Shown: positions 17,952 through 27,663 of the stretch, piece by piece | Numbering within the stretch: position 1 is the stretch's first letter | Layout of the letters: the number at the start of each line of letters is the position of its first letter | Source: Lactobacillus sp. PV034 | GTDB lineage: Bacteria > Bacillota > Bacilli > Lactobacillales > Lactobacillaceae | Reading direction: 5' to 3' | Length of the DNA: 64,000 bases | Assembly: GCF_014522305.1 (NCBI RefSeq) | Contig: NZ_CP041982.1 | Location: 811,001-875,000 of the forward strand | Made by a program: the position numbers and the translations under genes | The notes under the pieces: model-generated | Told to the model about the DNA's origin: nothing | What the model saw: the letters and a program-made list of their open reading frames with translations, nothing else | Database searches by the model: none

Positions 17952-19339
17952 TTAAGCCATTTGATTTAAAACCATATTTCGATATTGAATCGGAGTATGG
18001 TTTTTTATTGAGCTCTTAATTCTTTTGTTATTGTAGTAATAAATATATTCTTTGATTGCTTCTTCCAGCTCATCTAAATTCTTAAATGTTTTCTCAAAGC
18101 CATAGAACATTTCTCGCTTTAAAATGCCAAAAAATCCTTCCATTAATCCATCATCTAATGAATTACCTTTTCTAGACATTGATTGTTCAATCCCGTGATT
18201 TTTAAGCCAATTTTGAAAAGCTGGATGTTGATATTGCCAGCCTTGATCAGTATGAAAGATAAGCCCATTTAATGCAGGATGATCTTTATAAGCTAATTCA
18301 AGCATGTTCATTACTTGTTCTAAGACTGGATGACGACTAAGAGTGTAAGAAATTATTTCATGAGTGCAACCATCCATAATGGTGATAAATATAGTTTTTC
18401 TCCATTTAAATGAAATTCGGTTATATCAGAGTACCACTTTCTATCTGGCAAAATAGCTAGAAAATTGCGACAGATCAAATTAGGTTTGATTTTACCTACG
18501 GTACCCTGATAACTTGAGTATTTTCTTCTACGTCTAATTGCAATACCAAATAGATGCATCTTTTTCATTAGACGCTTTACTTTCTTGTGATTAATTTTAA
18601 CGCCTTCAATGTGTAATTGGGCTGTAATTCTCCTATAGCCGTATCTATGCTTGTGTTCCTCAAATATTTCTTTAATCCGTTTCATGATATCTTGATTTTT
18701 TAAATCTTTATCATCCTGTTTTAAAACATAGTAGTAATTGCTTTTAGATAAATGAGGCAAATCAGGATTAGAATTAATTGTATTTAAGATAAAAGTTACG
18801 GTTACATGAAGTTCATGCCTTAGTTCAGTAACCACCTGAGCTATTTCTTTGGCTTTTGGTTTTTTCTTTGAGAAACTAAGGCGCTTAATTTTTTTACAAA
18901 TTCGTTTTCGACAGTAAGCCTTAAGTTCTCTTGTTTTAGGTCTTTTAGTTGTTTTTGAAGTTCTTTGATTTGTTGGTCTTTGTTTTTCATGAGATGGTTT
19001 GCCTTTCTTGTGATTAATGACATTATACCCATCTTCTTTATATTTGCGAATCCAATTATGGATTAGACCCTGGCTAGGCAAGGCTAAATCTAAGGATACG
19101 TGTTGCGCAATTTCATTGTTAATAAGTACTCTTCTAATTGCTTCTTCCTTAAATTCAATTGTATAAGCAGAAGAAGATCTATCTAAAATATTGATTCCAT
19201 GACGATCTATCAAATTAAGCATATAACGGATATTACCTGAGTTTATTCTGTATTTTTTACTTAACCATGTAGAAGTTTTTCCATATTTTTTCCAATAATT
19301 ATAAATATCAATTTTATCTTGTTTTGTTAATTTAGACAT
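17952..19339 (-). pseudogene. IS3-family transposase OrfA/OrfB, two frameshifts
   Basis: From ATG 19339, OrfA starts with two HTH motifs (MSKLTKQDKIDIYNYWKK and later IEFKEEAIRRVL). Its leucine-zipper end lies in another frame (19032-18841, KELQKQLKDLKQENLRL), shifted by one extra base in the T5 run at 18983-18987. OrfB begins in the -1 frame after the slippery A AAA AAC (18859-18865), as normal for IS3. It has D1 in YSDITEFHLNG, then breaks near 18380 by loss of one base, and continues from 18377 with D2 (HTDQGWQY) and Glu (DDGLMEGFFG). Two lesions make full transposase unlikely. Confidence 0.8.
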
Positions 19340-20151: not shown

Positions 20152-21537
20152 TTATTCTCTCACATTAATTTTGCTGTGGTGATAACCGTAACCAAGATAA
20201 ATAATTAATCCTAATCCAAACCAAATCGCAGCAAAAATGAAAGTATTTATTGGCAAAAAGCACATCATGCCAACACATGCCAAACCAGAAATAATTGGCA
20301 AGACTGGATAAAAAGGTACCCTAAAACTTGGTTTTGGTAAATCTTTTCGTCTTCTAAGTAGCAAAACACCAAATGAAACAAAAGCAAAGGCTAGCAAGGT
20401 ACCAATTGAAACTAAATGAGTTAATTCATCTAAGGAGAAGAATCCACCCATCAATACAATGATTAAAGTTACTAACCAAAGTGCATTTTTAGGTAAGCCA
20501 TTTTCGTCAATTTTTCCTAAAGATTTTGGTAATAAGCCGTCACGACCGATTGAATAAACCAATCGGGAACTGGAGTAAGTCATTGAGATCATCATTGTCG
20601 TCATCCCCACCAAAGCACCTAAAGAAAGTAAATCAGCAAGCCAGCCCTGGTTAACTTGACGCAACGCGAAAGCTACTGGATTGGCAACATTCAATTTATT
20701 AAAATGAATCATTCCCGTTAAGATAATTGATACAGCCATATAAAGAACCGCCGCAATTAACAAGGTGCCAATGATTCCAATTGGCATATTCCTTTTAGGA
20801 TTTTTCACTTCAGCTGCAGAAGCAGATACACAATCAAACCCTAGAAAGGCAAAAAACACTGTAGTTGCACCGTGGAAAATACCATTCGTTCCAAATGGTA
20901 AAAATGGATGATAATTTGCTGGTTTAATGAAAAAGAGTCCTACTCCCACAAAGATAAAGATAATAATTATTTTTAGAATAACTGCAATATTATTAATCTT
21001 CATCGACTCTTTTAATCCTCGAGATAAGAGCAAAGCAATTAATAAAACACTCACAGCAGCCATCAGATTAAAGTATGTACCCTCATACGGATTAAACGCA
21101 TTGGTTAAAGCATGTGGAATTGACAAGCCAATGCTATTTAGCAGGGCATTAAAATATGCTGCCCAACCAGACGAAACGGCTGCTACAGAAAGCATATATT
21201 CTAAGATTAATGCCCAACCTAAAATCCAACCAATAATTTCTCCAAAAAGTAAATTCCCATAGGAATATGCTGACCCCGCAACTGGAATGCTAGAAGATAA
21301 TTCCGCATAACACATACTACAAAGGCCACAGACAATCGCTGCTACTAAAAAAGAGAGAGTTACTCCGGGACCTGCGGTAGTTGCAGCAACAGTTCCTGGT
21401 AAAATAAAAATTCCAGTACCAATTACTGCACCAATTCCCATGGCTAATAAGTCTTTTGCTCCCAAGCTTTTAATAAAACCTTTATCCGTTGCCAAATAAC
21501 GATCAATACTTTCTTTCCTTAAAAGGTTTAACTTCAT
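20152..21537 (-). CDS. APC-family amino-acid permease (CAT type)
   Basis: A 461-residue, about 12-helix permease of the cationic amino-acid transporter branch. It has the first-helix signature GIGAVIGTGIFILPGTVAA, the FFAFLGFDCVSASAAEVKNPKRNMP motif and a two-helix C-terminal end. Branch membership suggests Arg/Lys or broad substrates, but the leader peptide upstream is rich in Phe and Tyr, so the true substrate is open. Start ATG 21537 is set by GAGGAT six bases upstream. A strong terminator/antiterminator leader precedes it. Confidence 0.88.
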   Translation of the reverse strand: MKLNLLRKESIDRYLATDKGFIKSLGAKDLLAMGIGAVIGTGIFILPGTVAATTAGPGVTLSFLVAAIVCGLCSMCYAELSSSIPVAGSAYSYGNLLFGEIIGWILGWALILEYMLSVAAVSSGWAAYFNALLNSIGLSIPHALTNAFNPYEGTYFNLMAAVSVLLIALLLSRGLKESMKINNIAVILKIIIIFIFVGVGLFFIKPANYHPFLPFGTNGIFHGATTVFFAFLGFDCVSASAAEVKNPKRNMPIGIIGTLLIAAVLYMAVSIILTGMIHFNKLNVANPVAFALRQVNQGWLADLLSLGALVGMTTMMISMTYSSSRLVYSIGRDGLLPKSLGKIDENGLPKNALWLVTLIIVLMGGFFSLDELTHLVSIGTLLAFAFVSFGVLLLRRRKDLPKPSFRVPFYPVLPIISGLACVGMMCFLPINTFIFAAIWFGLGLIIYLGYGYHHSKINVRE

Positions 21538-21574
21538 AATTATCCTCACACGTTTAAAATCTTTTTATGAAAAA

Positions 21575-21613
21575 ATGCTAACTAGTATACCTTCTTGGTA
21601 ATCTAGTTAGCAT
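21575..21613 (-). terminator. Attenuator terminator before the APC permease
   Basis: ATGCTAACTAG (RNA sense, 21613-21603) pairs perfectly with CTAGTTAGCAT (21585-21575), with an extra four-base pair near the loop, and is followed by TTTTTT. It stands about 40 bases before the permease start, so it gates that gene. An upstream segment at 21654-21667 (ATCTAGTGAAGCAT in RNA sense) can pair with the first arm instead and would prevent terminator formation. Confidence 0.8.
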
Positions 21614-21676
21614 CGATAGACTTATCAACAAAACTTTGTGCAATATAACTTTAATGCTTCACTAGATTCATTCCTA

Positions 21677-21773
21677 GCAAAGCCACATTACAAATAACTT
21701 TGCTTAGGTACACACTTTAGAGCACATACCTAAGTAGAAAAGGCATATGCTCTACATAAAGTAAGCAAAGTTA
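21677..21773 (-). promoter_or_regulatory. Alternative hairpins of the permease leader
   Basis: Three overlapping pairings are visible. The leader-ORF segment 21762-21773 pairs perfectly over 12 bases with 21695-21706. The segment 21742-21753, at the leader stop, pairs with 21719-21730 (12 pairs, two G-U). The segment 21727-21734 pairs perfectly with 21703-21710, excluding both of the others. A further stem joins 21698-21704 to 21676-21682. Ribosome position on the leader ORF would choose between them. Confidence 0.65.
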
Positions 21774-21814
21774 AAAAAGGATTGTGTTAAATGTAATGCG
21801 TTTAAGTTATTCAT
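21752..21814 (-). CDS. Leader peptide, 20 residues, Phe/Tyr-rich
   Basis: The ORF starts at ATG 21814 behind GAAAGGAAG and ends with QSFFNFAYFM: codons 13-19 are Phe-Phe-Asn-Phe-Ala-Tyr-Phe. It is too short for the usual gene callers but has one of the better ribosome sites in the region. It is the first ORF after a promoter that otherwise leads only to the permease. Four Phe and one Tyr in seven codons just before the stop is the hallmark of an aromatic amino-acid attenuator peptide. Confidence 0.65.
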   Translation of the reverse strand: MNNLNALHLTQSFFNFAYFM

Positions 21815-21844
21815 TGCAAAACTTCCTTTCAATTGTTGTATAAC

Positions 21845-21873
21845 ATTAAAACATTATAAATATTTTTTGTCAA
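21845..21873 (-). promoter_or_regulatory. Promoter of the permease leader
   Basis: TTGACA (21873-21868) and TTTAAT (21850-21845) on the minus strand with a 17-base spacer. Transcription would begin near 21838, just ahead of the leader ORF. It lies between the hpt terminator and the leader, so permease and leader form an independent unit. Confidence 0.6.
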
Positions 21874-23892: not shown

Positions 23893-25992
23893 TTAATTAT
23901 TTTCTTTCAAGACTTCTGCTTGGACTTTTAGTTTACCATTTTTATCTGGCTTAAAATAGACTCCCTGAATTTCTGGTACAAAACCAGGAAACCGTTCAAT
24001 TGCGCCTTGCAGCACTTCAAAATACTTTTGATCTACCTTACTCCATCGTTCCCCTGGTGCTACGACAAAGATCCCAGGTGGATATGGTAATGCTCCTTCA
24101 AGGGCAATCCGAGTATCAATATTTTTTAAATCAACTAATTCACTTTGATTCTTCATAAATTGATAATCTGCTTCTTTAGGAGTAAGAGAATAATTTTGAA
24201 AATTATCTTTTGCAAATAATTCTTTTTGCAGTGTAAAAGTTTTATTTTTTCGATAATAATCATGCATCTCACTAGCAAGCTGTTGAATTGTATAATTTCG
24301 ATAGCGAGCTGGATATTGTTTAGCTAGTTTTGGCAATACTTTTTCCAATGGAGCATTTTGCGCAAAAAGCTCTTCAAACCTAAGTAACGCATCCAATAAT
24401 ACATCTAAATCATAGTTTGTATCACCCGGCGTCAGCAAAAATAGTAATGAATATAAGTCATTTTTGGCACGAATAATCCTTTTTTCCATTAAGAATTCTG
24501 AAACAATCGCTGCTGGTACTCCTTGATCTTCATAGCTATTTTTTGAATTATTAATCCCTGCAGTAGCCAAAGTGATTTTCATTGGATCAATCATTGCTTC
24601 ATTTGAGGCAATTTCATTAAAGCCATGCCACTTTTTCCCAGGAGTTATTTGCCACAAAGCACTATTGGTTGCTAGTTCCTCAGTGGTATAGTTATCAAAG
24701 CTATCTGGTACAAATGGCCTAAACAATTTGGAATGTTTAATTAATTGTTTTCTGAATTTAATTCCCGCACGTAAAATTTGATCCCACCATTTTTTATTAC
24801 CACTTCCACTAGTTAAGGCAGAATTAACTACTAATGAAGCATAAAGTGGATATGAATAGCTAGTTGTAACAAATTTTAAGTAGGCATTATTAAAGTGCTT
24901 ATGATCAACGTAACGATCTTGTCCTTTAAGATGACGATCCTTTTTTAAAATTTGTGAAGCCTGCCCCATTCCAGCTTGCTGCTTATGCAAAGATTGTGTA
25001 ACAAGTATTCCGGGATCATCAGGTCCTAACTCTAAATTAAGCGGAGAAAGATCCTTCATAATTGGTAAGAAGCTTTCAAATCCTCCCCAGGCACAATCAA
25101 ATAAAATATAATCACACAAGTGGCCAATTTTATCCACAATCCACTGTGGATGATAAAAAATACCATCATAAGTTTCCAGTTGGATAATTGCTAAGCGAAA
25201 GGGCCTTTTTTCCTTAGCTCGGTTTGGATCAACTTTAGCAATCTCTGCTCTGATTGCTGCTTCAGAGAGTTTAGCTGGATCCATCCCACCAATTAAGCCG
25301 AAAGCATTTCGATCAGTCGGAATATATACTGGTTTAGATCCTGTCATTACCAATGCACTATTATAGAGTGACTTATGATTATTACGATCAAATAATACCA
25401 AATCATCTTCTGTTAATAAGGCTGCCGCACAAATCGAGTTAGCGCTTGTTGTCCCATTGGTACAAAAGTAAACTTTATCAGCATTGTAAGTTTTAGCAGC
25501 TTGTTGTTCCGCTGTTAATGGGCTGCCACTATGCATCATCATGTCTCCGAGTTCCGGTACGGTGTCGCTTGTATCAGCATACATCATATTTTTGCCAAAA
25601 AAGCGGTTAAAAACAACTCCCGCGGGATGTTTATCGTAATATTGACCATTATGGTGTCCAGGAGTGGTGAAACTTACAGGTCGATCAGTTGAAAAATGAA
25701 TTAAATCTCTTAAGTATTTTGGAACCATCTTCTTGTAATAGTCAGTTGCCTGCTCAAAGATAAATTGATAATTAATATTTTTCTGTTCAAGATTAATTTT
25801 AATAATAGGAGGTTTTAACCCTGACAAAGTCTGCATCTTTTTAACAAGATCTAAATCCTGTTCATTATTTGCATCGATTACAAATGCTGCAATACTTGCT
25901 ATATTTAGCTCAGTATCAAGAGAAACCAAATTCCAGTCTCGATTTTGAGGTAAAGTAATATTTTCCCCAACCGCAATATCTAAAAAGTTCAA
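23893..25992 (-). CDS. Ornithine decarboxylase (inducible, group III PLP type)
   Basis: A 699-residue member of the Orn/Lys/Arg decarboxylase family, similar in size to the inducible Lactobacillus 30a enzyme. It has a short wing domain (1-100), then the PLP domain with TPGHHNGQ, H206 in DRNNHKS, D299 in LFDCAWGG and K337 in SLHKQQAGMGQ. It converts ornithine to putrescine, consuming a proton, and together with the divergent antiporter it gives acid resistance and proton motive force. Start is TTG 25992 with GGAGG six bases upstream. Confidence 0.9.
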   Translation of the reverse strand: MNFLDIAVGENITLPQNRDWNLVSLDTELNIASIAAFVIDANNEQDLDLVKKMQTLSGLKPPIIKINLEQKNINYQFIFEQATDYYKKMVPKYLRDLIHFSTDRPVSFTTPGHHNGQYYDKHPAGVVFNRFFGKNMMYADTSDTVPELGDMMMHSGSPLTAEQQAAKTYNADKVYFCTNGTTSANSICAAALLTEDDLVLFDRNNHKSLYNSALVMTGSKPVYIPTDRNAFGLIGGMDPAKLSEAAIRAEIAKVDPNRAKEKRPFRLAIIQLETYDGIFYHPQWIVDKIGHLCDYILFDCAWGGFESFLPIMKDLSPLNLELGPDDPGILVTQSLHKQQAGMGQASQILKKDRHLKGQDRYVDHKHFNNAYLKFVTTSYSYPLYASLVVNSALTSGSGNKKWWDQILRAGIKFRKQLIKHSKLFRPFVPDSFDNYTTEELATNSALWQITPGKKWHGFNEIASNEAMIDPMKITLATAGINNSKNSYEDQGVPAAIVSEFLMEKRIIRAKNDLYSLLFLLTPGDTNYDLDVLLDALLRFEELFAQNAPLEKVLPKLAKQYPARYRNYTIQQLASEMHDYYRKNKTFTLQKELFAKDNFQNYSLTPKEADYQFMKNQSELVDLKNIDTRIALEGALPYPPGIFVVAPGERWSKVDQKYFEVLQGAIERFPGFVPEIQGVYFKPDKNGKLKVQAEVLKENN

Positions 25993-26026
25993 AATTAACC
26001 TCCAATAATCAACTTTTTAATTCGCC

Positions 26027-26054
26027 TTGAATTATTTATAAAAATCTATATAAT
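26027..26054 (+). promoter_or_regulatory. Promoter of the antiporter transcript
   Basis: TTGAAT (26027-26032) and TATAAT (26049-26054) with a 16-base spacer. Transcription would begin near 26061 and cover a roughly 145-base leader before the permease, including the short ORF at 26109. Confidence 0.65.
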
Positions 26055-26108
26055 TTTTGGCGGACATCCTTTAGGGATAAATTATAAGGATTTCGGAGAT
26101 AAGTACAA

Positions 26109-26165
26109 ATGAAAATATTAAGTCCACTTTTACCTTTACGCCCTCCAAACCATGTTTTTAGCTAA
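26109..26165 (+). CDS. Leader peptide MKILSPLLPLRPPNHVFS before the antiporter
   Basis: An 18-codon ORF with a good ribosome site (CGGAGATAAG, ATG 26109). It contains an Arg-Pro-Pro run (codons 11-13) four codons before the end, a kind of sequence that slows ribosomes. The same codons (CGC CCT CCA, CCTCC at 26142-26146) are complementary to GGAGG (26193-26197) of the permease. The end of the ORF (26154-26161) also pairs with 26179-26186. Enterobacterial speF has the ornithine-sensing leader peptide SpeFL, but this sequence is unrelated. Confidence 0.55.
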   Translation: MKILSPLLPLRPPNHVFS

Positions 26166-26205
26166 TTAATCATTAATACTAAAAACTAATTCGGAGGTTG
26201 TTTTT

Positions 26206-27663
26206 ATGGAACATATGGAATATATCGATCTTGAGCCACAAAAAAAGCATTATATGGCGTGGCCGGTTATTGCTTTAATTGATTTTGTAACAATTATCAG
26301 TTTTGAAAATATTTTTTATCCTTTTCAAAACCAAGGTCTATCAGTTGTTATTTCATGGATCTTTTTATTCTTTTCTTACATTTTGCCCTATGCACTTATT
26401 TCGGCACAGATGAGTTTAACCTTTGATAATCAAGCCGGTGGACTAGCTTCCTGGGTACGGCGTAGCAGTAATGATACCTTAGGCTATTGGACTAGCTGGA
26501 TGTACTGGGTACAAAGTGTGCCTTATATTGTCGATGTTTCTAACTCAGTAATTGTTTCAGTTAGTTGGATGATTCTTGGCAATAACAGTTTAGACAAAAA
26601 AATGTCAACTTTTTGGTTTGGAATCTTAACTTTTGTCATCATCTTACTGTTTATTCTTTTAGAAAATCTTCTTAAGAATTCACTTGAAGTGCTATCACTT
26701 ATTGGTGGCGGTGCAATGTTTATTATGTCATTTTTATTTGTCTTATTAGCTGGCTATGCAGTAATGCATGGACATCACATTGCTACCCAACCCTTTAATT
26801 TAGCAGCATTTAAACCATCATTTAGTTTGAATTATTTCTCAACTACTGGTCTTTTAATTTTTGCTATTTCTGGAGCAGAATTAGCTGCACCTTATGTTTC
26901 TGAAATGAAAAATCCTAAACGTGACTTTCCTAAGTCCATGTGGTTGCTAGCTTTAATGACAGGATTTCTAACCATTTTTGGTACTTTGGCATTAGCTATG
27001 TTCTTCAACGCTCATCATATCCCCCATGACTTCAAGATGAACGGACCTTACTATGCCTTCCAATTACTCGGTGAGAGTTTAGGAATGGGTAAAGCCCTAA
27101 TGTATATTTTTGCAGTAGTTCAAGCAGTCTTTATGATGGCGCAGCTTGCTGTTCTGCTAGATGCTTCTAGTCGTGTCTTTGCTGGAGACGTTGCAGACAA
27201 ATTTATGCCCAAATGGCTTACTAAAAAGAATAAAAATGGTCGTCCGATTCACAGTTATACCATTACCGCTGGTTTGAGTTTATTCTTATTACTCCTAACT
27301 GGTACCTTGCCTAATATCAATACTATTTATAACTGGCTCTTAAATGTGAACGGAATTATTTCTCCCTATAAAACCTGTTGGGTGTTCTTTGCTTTTGTAG
27401 CAATGCGCATGCACCAAGAGAAATATCATTCTAGTTATACCTTTATTAAAAATAAGGCTGGTGCCTTAGCTATTGGTTTTTGGTGTTTAATTTTTACCTT
27501 TATCTGTGCAACTTTAGGCTTTATACCTCAAAATATTGCCTTTGGTACACAAGGATTTAATCACCAATTAATCATGAATATTATTACTGTGCTCGTTCTA
27601 TTTGGTCTTGGTTTTGTAATGCCATGGCTTAGAAAAAGAGAAAAAGCACGCGAAAATAAATAA
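26206..27663 (+). CDS. APC-family amino-acid antiporter (probable ornithine/putrescine exchanger)
   Basis: A 485-residue, about 12-helix APC permease resembling the glutamate:GABA and YjeM-like antiporters. It has a conserved early segment (FVTIISFENIFYPFQNQGLS), the AISGAELAAPYVSEMKNPKRDFPKSMW motif and a C-terminal EKARENK tail. Divergent pairing with ornithine decarboxylase suggests exchange of ornithine for putrescine; this is context-based. The ribosome site CGGAGG lies eight bases before ATG 26206, and its complement is inside the leader ORF. Confidence 0.82.
   Translation: MEHMEYIDLEPQKKHYMAWPVIALIDFVTIISFENIFYPFQNQGLSVVISWIFLFFSYILPYALISAQMSLTFDNQAGGLASWVRRSSNDTLGYWTSWMYWVQSVPYIVDVSNSVIVSVSWMILGNNSLDKKMSTFWFGILTFVIILLFILLENLLKNSLEVLSLIGGGAMFIMSFLFVLLAGYAVMHGHHIATQPFNLAAFKPSFSLNYFSTTGLLIFAISGAELAAPYVSEMKNPKRDFPKSMWLLALMTGFLTIFGTLALAMFFNAHHIPHDFKMNGPYYAFQLLGESLGMGKALMYIFAVVQAVFMMAQLAVLLDASSRVFAGDVADKFMPKWLTKKNKNGRPIHSYTITAGLSLFLLLLTGTLPNINTIYNWLLNVNGIISPYKTCWVFFAFVAMRMHQEKYHSSYTFIKNKAGALAIGFWCLIFTFICATLGFIPQNIAFGTQGFNHQLIMNIITVLVLFGLGFVMPWLRKREKARENK

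Follow-up and report, generated by a model that had tools for sequence, protein, structure and literature searches.

Leader-peptide attenuators of the trp and pheA type have four segments and combine peptide codons for the regulated amino acid with a terminator and an antiterminator, and the his leader has a six-segment layout. Aromatic regulation in low-GC Gram-positive bacteria is said to have been treated by Panina et al. 2003, and T-boxes are the usual explanation for amino-acid control in lactic acid bacteria. The his-operon attenuator mechanism is described for enterobacteria, and the accessible text of the same source reports His-leader attenuators of Firmicutes from the B. cereus group, Eubacteriales and Erysipelotrichales, with lactobacilli not among the groups named there (PMC9413887). 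Tyr T-boxes are located 5' of NhaC transporters in several Firmicutes (PMC2494555). In Streptococcus agalactiae, the gbs1262 and gbs2033 5' UTR elements of 195 and 270 nt precede ABC-transporter operons and give premature termination. They are conserved in Lactobacillales, one of them also stands before the E. faecium aroFBC-tyrA operon, and both have been proposed as aromatic riboswitches (PMC4448216). E. faecium sRNA_2410 is treated as an sRNA in its source paper (PMC5593968).

The leader upstream of the window permease

The window is a 64,000-nucleotide stretch of the Lactobacillus sp. PV034 genome. Its minus strand carries a 0.3 kb leader 5' of an amino-acid permease gene, with a promoter, a ribosome site, an ORF ending in FFNFAYFM, hairpins and an intrinsic terminator. 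A preliminary description had presented this leader as a complete attenuator, but it missed the linking segment C. The parts are as follows.

21845..21873, minus strand: promoter TTGACA-17-TTTAAT (TTGACA 21873-21868, 17-base spacer, TTTAAT 21850-21845)
21822..21830, minus strand: ribosome binding site of the leader ORF, GAAAGGAAG, read from the sequence
21752..21814, minus strand: leader ORF of 20 codons, MNNLNALHLTQSFFNFAYFM and stop, with its ATG at 21814
21758..21778, minus strand: control codons 13-19, Phe-Phe-Asn-Phe-Ala-Tyr-Phe (FFNFAYF)
21762..21773, minus strand: segment A, within the control codons, partner of B
21719..21753, minus strand: hairpin H, nested within A:B
21722..21734, minus strand: segment G, the 3' side of H, with the alternative partner B' (13 pairs by eye, kept in relatives)
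21703..21715, minus strand: segment B', partner of G
21695..21709, minus strand: segment B, partner of A or C
21673..21684, minus strand: segment C, GGCTTTGCTAGG, partner of B or D
21654..21667, minus strand: segment D, the antiterminator, partner of C or E (D:E by fold model only)
21601..21614, minus strand: segment E, 5' arm of the terminator
21570..21586, minus strand: segment F, 3' arm of the terminator, with T6
20152..21537, minus strand: APC-superfamily amino-acid permease, the putative regulated gene (PF13520, E = 5.5e-58)

The promoter at 21873-21845, the 20-codon ORF with a strong ribosome site and FFNFAYF at codons 13-19, and the APC permease downstream all read as originally described. 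Inspection by eye likewise agrees with the three pairings given there, which are 21773-21762 with 21706-21695 (12 bases, perfect), 21753-21742 with 21730-21719 (12 pairs, two of them G-U) and 21734-21727 with 21710-21703 (8 bases, perfect, and 13 pairs with G-U included). These had been called mutually exclusive. The third does exclude the first two, but the first two are nested and compatible. The C:B interaction comprises 12 pairs with one bulge (by eye), and the terminator before the permease is the perfect 11-base hairpin that had been claimed (ATGCTAACTAG/CTAGTTAGCAT, 11 bp by eye, then T6). The antiterminator segment proposed at 21654-21667 corresponds to D, which pairs with E in the fold model.

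The segments form a chain, A:B, B:C, C:D, D:E and E:F, in which a termination set (A:B, C:D and E:F) stands against a readthrough set (B:C and D:E). This is the his-type six-segment layout, with its D:E step taken from the fold model. The original assignment to the trp/pheA type is supported as to ribosome-mediated attenuation and fails for the layout, which is his-like with an additional switch between H and G:B'. An ORF with a ribosome site, its translation predicted from the sequence, lies between promoter and gene, and an intrinsic terminator is paired with an exclusive antiterminator, the controlling pairings being backed by covariation and D:E by the fold model. The 277-nt leader folds at -89.5 kcal/mol compared to -54.1 ± 4.7 kcal/mol in 200 shuffles (z = -7.6; 0/200 as good). 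Its ORF is the sole one with five aromatic residues in the last eight among 148 short ORFs of the whole window (both strands, 12-30 residues, simple ribosome-site motif), and four others have four.

We assign a probability of about 0.9 to the reading that this leader is a leader-peptide, or ribosome-mediated, transcription attenuator, which is predicted to increase expression of the permease upon a shortage of charged tRNA-Phe and, to a smaller extent, of charged tRNA-Tyr. Its direct basis is the sequence, its conservation, the covariation of A:B, H, C:D, B:C and G:B', the presence of the terminator and the match between codons and gene.

The permease starts at the ATG at 21537. Its best NCBIfam model is BcaP, at 577 bits and under the cut-off of 690 for that model, and its substrate would be Phe, possibly Tyr. 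Two overlapping ORFs that by eye resemble an insertion-element transposase pair lie immediately 3' of the PAP2 and permease genes (window 17952-19339, minus strand). Elsewhere in the window (23893-27663), a putative lactobacillar ornithine decarboxylase (TIGR04318) is divergent from a second APC-type transporter, and the two are possibly a decarboxylase-antiporter pair.

Spread of the leader RNA and conservation of its pairings

The same leader, pairings and terminator precede the same permease in L. agrestimuris (L009) and a third species (G039), the outcome sought by the alignment of related Lactobacillus leaders suggested at the outset. Both promoter hexamers are retained in the alignment of these leaders. 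The sister peptides MNNLYSIHNFFNFAYFM and MNNWHTMQNFFNFAYFM (L. agrestimuris and G039) are variable at the N-terminus and constant in the C-terminal FFNFAYFM. A pattern search of 397 family genomes allowing up to 3 mismatches matched G000, G039 and G416, the last from another genus, Limosilactobacillus, with a peptide ending in YYNFAYFI before an MFS transporter. R1, a covariance model built from three sequences, matched 35/50 Limosilactobacillus genomes, Limosilactobacillus ingluviei (L010) among them, and 3/75 own-genus genomes, yet the permease itself has a match at E = 1e-100 in 68 of those 75.

A second model (R2) matched 100/397 Lactobacillaceae genomes in 20/40 genera, and a third (R3) matched 126/295 Lactobacillales genomes in 41/74 genera; the family and order scans scored 9-12 candidates per genome (9 in the family scan), so some carriers will have escaped detection. 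The own-genus genome G049 carries two R3 sites (L313 and L314). R3 matched 21/299 genomes of a class-wide sample, two of them (G750 and G861) outside Lactobacillales. Carriers identified by name include Fructobacillus fructosus, Lentilactobacillus kefiri, L. dabitei, L. otakiensis and Secundilactobacillus odoratitofui. A search of 20 named genomes gave a match in 8, and the Levilactobacillus brevis match is weak and lacks a leader ORF. Attenuators of this kind had been presented as rarely described in lactobacilli. This one is no rarity, as the same RNA is widespread in Lactobacillales and its codons are exchanged to match the gene.

The upstream regions of the permease were compared at 55 ortholog loci together with the own paralog and the own leader, 16 regions in full. 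Two Weissella orthologs (L029 and L031) match neither R2 nor R3 and were kept out of the family. Their leader peptides are rich in Phe (SFKxFTFF; L029 by eye), and a terminator-like hairpin lies 5' of the permease. They may represent a Phe attenuator that is independent or has diverged strongly.

A:B, H and C:D are paired in 89.6% of cells compared to 28-40% when slid (87 sequences, 86 distinct), and 28/30 of their pairs have changes on both sides, in a set that lies outside R2 training but was picked by R2. In the same set the competing interactions are paired in 90.5% of cells versus 18-44% slid for B:C, and 91.9% versus 31-41% slid for G:B'. The first set (45 sequences, 41 distinct) gives 94.1% for A:B, H and C:D, 93.8% for B:C and 94.9% for G:B'; all of these counts are uncorrected for relatedness. 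The alignments (A5 for the first set, A6 for the second) were fitted to A:B, H and C:D, not to B:C or G:B'. B:C has both-side changes at 2 pairs in the first set, a number reached by 265/500 shuffles, and at 6 pairs in the second, reached by 32/500. G:B' has 6 such pairs in each set, reached by 1/500 shuffles in the first and 23/500 in the second. The competing pairs are retained more clearly than they covary, and by some measures the covariation of B:C is weak. At 131/132 sites a terminator reaches -5 kcal/mol or better. The preliminary description had staked its reading on conserved Phe/Tyr codons and compensatory pairs in relatives, and both are found.

Leader codons and the genes behind them

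A short ORF with a ribosome-site-like motif is present at 45/45 loci of the first set, and an aromatic-ended leader ORF at 87/88 family-search sites, the weakest match (L214) being the one without. Fitting leader ORFs were found at 75/83 order-level sites read (3/3, 15/20 and 57/60); the three of 60 without one are L309, L311 and L334, the G750 site among them. Aromatic residues make up 614/1053 of the last nine positions versus 41/1040 of the earlier ones (117 distinct peptides of 132). At several leader positions Tyr and Phe are each written with either codon, so the residue is conserved beyond the base sequence.

The codons follow the gene in a table of 133 sites, whose gene classes were assigned by sequence motifs. 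The 31 leaders of NhaC-family transporters (HMM-confirmed representative L075) average 3.94 Tyr and 0.13 Phe. The 67 MFS transporter leaders carry 2.16 Phe, 3.54 Tyr and 0.27 Trp; shikimate dehydrogenase leaders (11 sites; representative L160) 1.73 Phe and 4.27 Tyr; chorismate mutase leaders (13 sites; representatives L164 and L156) 2.0 Phe and 3.85 Tyr. Phe predominates before prephenate-dehydratase-like genes (4 sites; 3.5 Phe, 0.25 Tyr) and window-type permeases (3 sites; 4 Phe, 1 Tyr). Shikimate kinase occurs at one site (L127, HMM-confirmed), and three sites are unclassified (L094, L193 and L214). Some HMM-confirmed representatives fall under curated cut-offs (NhaC, 369 of 370; TrpX, 336 and 326 of 390).

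At the order level, the genes behind aromatic leaders encode TrpX-type binding proteins, AroE, prephenate dehydratase and an aminotransferase. Behind leaders coding for Ile/Leu/Val (LISVIR, IISIIR, IIIISIIE) lie genes for acetolactate synthase, branched-chain aminotransferase, threonine ammonia-lyase and branched-chain binding proteins (L251, L253, L277, L281, L282, L285, L288, L291, L294, L297, L299, L325 and L330). Order-level gene representatives named by HMM are L277, L278, L279, L282, L288, L297, L302, L317 and L320. In a 75-row set (57/60 order-level sites, 15/20 further sites and L225-L227), aliphatic leaders stand before 13/13 branched-chain genes and aromatic leaders before 60/62 others (Fisher p = 8e-13), where related species are not independent and the branched-chain labels were given by eye, 4/13 of them HMM-named. 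The two discordant rows (L290 and L323) reflect the scoring of an out-of-frame ORF, and an aromatic ORF is present at both. Runs of pathway-matching codons are found, for the window permease by the logic of the family. Outside Lactobacillales, a leader ending in YYYFGWFS precedes a transketolase gene (L335, in G861). The product of transketolase feeds the shikimate pathway.

At L106, a Phe-rich leader is followed by genes for a prephenate-dehydratase-like protein, prephenate dehydrogenase and DAHP synthase. Proteins of ~177 residues of the first kind are located behind Phe-rich leaders at L106 (929-1462), L154, L157, L180 and L322. At 0.001 the L106 protein matches neither a Pfam nor an NCBIfam model, and sequences of solved structures gave no credible hit to it; a weak PDT match was obtained for 4/5 of the proteins (best E = 0.008). 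An AlphaFold2 model (pLDDT 93) comes closest to the prephenate dehydratase 3mwb, at a TM of 0.49, with many periplasmic-binding-type folds next, which makes the name tentative. The protein family is perhaps a divergent PheA.

It is quite likely that a single codon-programmable attenuator RNA is common to Lactobacillales. Its constant framework of competing pairings would carry codons for Phe, Tyr, mixed aromatic residues (with Trp) or Ile/Leu/Val according to the gene, and the leader would predict transporter substrates. Enterococcus sRNA_2410 would be a member, and so, probably, would the Streptococcus "aromatic riboswitches". The window leader is apparently the first recognized sequence of this large, unrecognized family. 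A full-text literature search, whose coverage leaves out most subscription journals, returned no report of the family among the matches listed.

Modeled switching and comparison with described systems

The proposed mechanism starts with control codons free of a ribosome. A:B would then form with H nested inside it, C would pair with D, and unpaired E would be left to form the E:F terminator. A ribosome stalled on the Phe/Tyr codons would mask A, so that B takes C and D is freed. Freed D would take E ahead of the synthesis of F, and RNA polymerase would enter the permease gene. On reaching the stop codon, a ribosome would disrupt H and leave G to pair with B', a state in which the fold model favors termination in some relatives and not in the window leader.

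These states were modeled by folding transcripts that stop after E, with a ribosome masking each codon in turn, in a scan that is thermodynamic and not kinetic. It covered 131 of 133 sites; L214 (no leader) and L155 (no terminator found, probably through a mis-set gene start) were dropped. The median number of D:E pairs is 0.04 in the ribosome-free transcript. It is 3.7-5.5 when the A site lies on codons -14 to -10, reaches 8.9-9.9 over codons -9 to -3, and is 2.8-3.8 between codon -2 and the stop. Relative to the ribosome-free state, D:E gains 3 or more pairs upon aromatic stalling at 78/131 sites, loses 3 or more at none and gains fewer than 3 at 53; D:E already has 3 or more pairs without a ribosome at 27/131 sites. 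At 39/131 sites stalling gives at least 3 pairs more than the stop-codon state (the reverse at 4), and at 37/131 at least 3 more than the early-codon state (the reverse at 1). When the B-C region is shuffled, D:E forms with no ribosome present (median 8.9 pairs), the mean gain drops to 1.45, compared with 5.06, and 3 or more pairs are gained at 30 sites instead of 78.

The stalled-ribosome fold proposed for the window leader gives the expected switch, with D:E modeled at 0 pairs when free and 12.9 when stalled. A ribosome on codons before 11 (3.4-8.0 pairs) is likewise predicted to favor D:E, as is one at the stop codon. The value at the stop codon is 12.8, and termination there would therefore need ribosome release. 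The sister leader L068, and L071, show almost no D:E gain, and the response is weak at chorismate-mutase sites (4/13) and AroE sites (4/10).

Database comparisons bear on what else the RNA could be. The window has no Rfam match at gathering score, and searches of the leader at E = 5 and 10 return only matches far under gathering scores. No T-box (RF00230) was found in the window at gathering score or in the leader at E = 5, and the own genome has 17 T-box matches at E = 0.001, 3 of them over the family cut-off and all outside the window. Rfam scans of 38 loci (20 with no match, 18 with three) returned a single family overlapping a leader, RF02863, "Enterococcus sRNA 2410". It exceeds its gathering score at L257, L259 and L267 on the leader strand, starts in the aligned case (L259) at the last leader codons and reaches the terminator, and has no match to the window leader.

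The RF02863 label suggests a stand-alone sRNA whose terminator marks the end of an sRNA gene. The model matches 3/18 loci of one scan on the leader strand, and sRNA_2410 is described as expressed in E. faecium, with two transcripts on Northern blots (PMC5593968). Such a gene would not account for a leader ORF in front, matching-pathway genes behind and competing pairings that reach the terminator arm, and a short RNA is also the expected terminated product of an attenuator. We regard this as the least probable of the alternatives, and sRNA_2410 is probably a terminated attenuator leader. A riboswitch that binds an aromatic amino acid as its metabolite, the proposal made for the elements before the two S. 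agalactiae operons, would share the conserved structured 5' UTR, the terminator and antiterminator and the aromatic genes downstream. PMC4448216 interprets the probable relatives in this way and records short and long transcripts from one start site. However, the short ORF and its ribosome site belong to the conserved unit, and its codons change from Phe/Tyr to Ile/Leu along with the gene while the RNA frame stays constant; a leader peptide is mentioned nowhere in the main text of that paper. A riboswitch is very unlikely on these grounds, and gene context suggests that the gbs1262 and gbs2033 elements probably belong to the attenuator family.

A further alternative is an arrest peptide, in which the nascent chain itself would halt the ribosome upon ligand binding. 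C-terminal motifs are well conserved in groups (YYYGFAYFR, FSYFR), but Phe, Tyr, Trp, Ile, Leu and Val interchange by gene, and the constant residues (Gly/Ala, Ser, Arg) sit where the codons probably serve RNA pairing too. We give this explanation no more credence than the riboswitch. Ribosome-mediated attenuation is the preferred reading. A second sensor of tRNA charging that acts via translation would alter the picture of aromatic and branched-chain sensing, and the family would reassign one Rfam "sRNA" and probably two proposed riboswitches. Leader codons suggest Tyr as the substrate of NhaC, Phe for the window permease and an aromatic compound or precursor for the MFS family. The Tyr T-boxes before NhaC genes (PMC2494555) support NhaC as a Tyr transporter.

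RF02863 is filed as an sRNA gene and in relatives shares its span with the attenuator leader. The T-box likewise couples transcription antitermination to uncharged tRNA but, unlike the window leader, reads the tRNA directly. The His-leader attenuators of Firmicutes resemble the window leader as leader-peptide attenuation in T-box-rich Gram-positive bacteria and differ by reading histidine. With the trp/pheA leaders the window leader shares leader-peptide codons, a terminator and an antiterminator, and it differs from them in its six segments plus H/G. The his attenuator has the same run of control codons, the same chain of A:B, C:D and E:F against B:C and D:E, and an intrinsic terminator. The window leader is distinguished from it by taxa, amino acids and sequence, and by the extra hairpin H that competes with G:B'.
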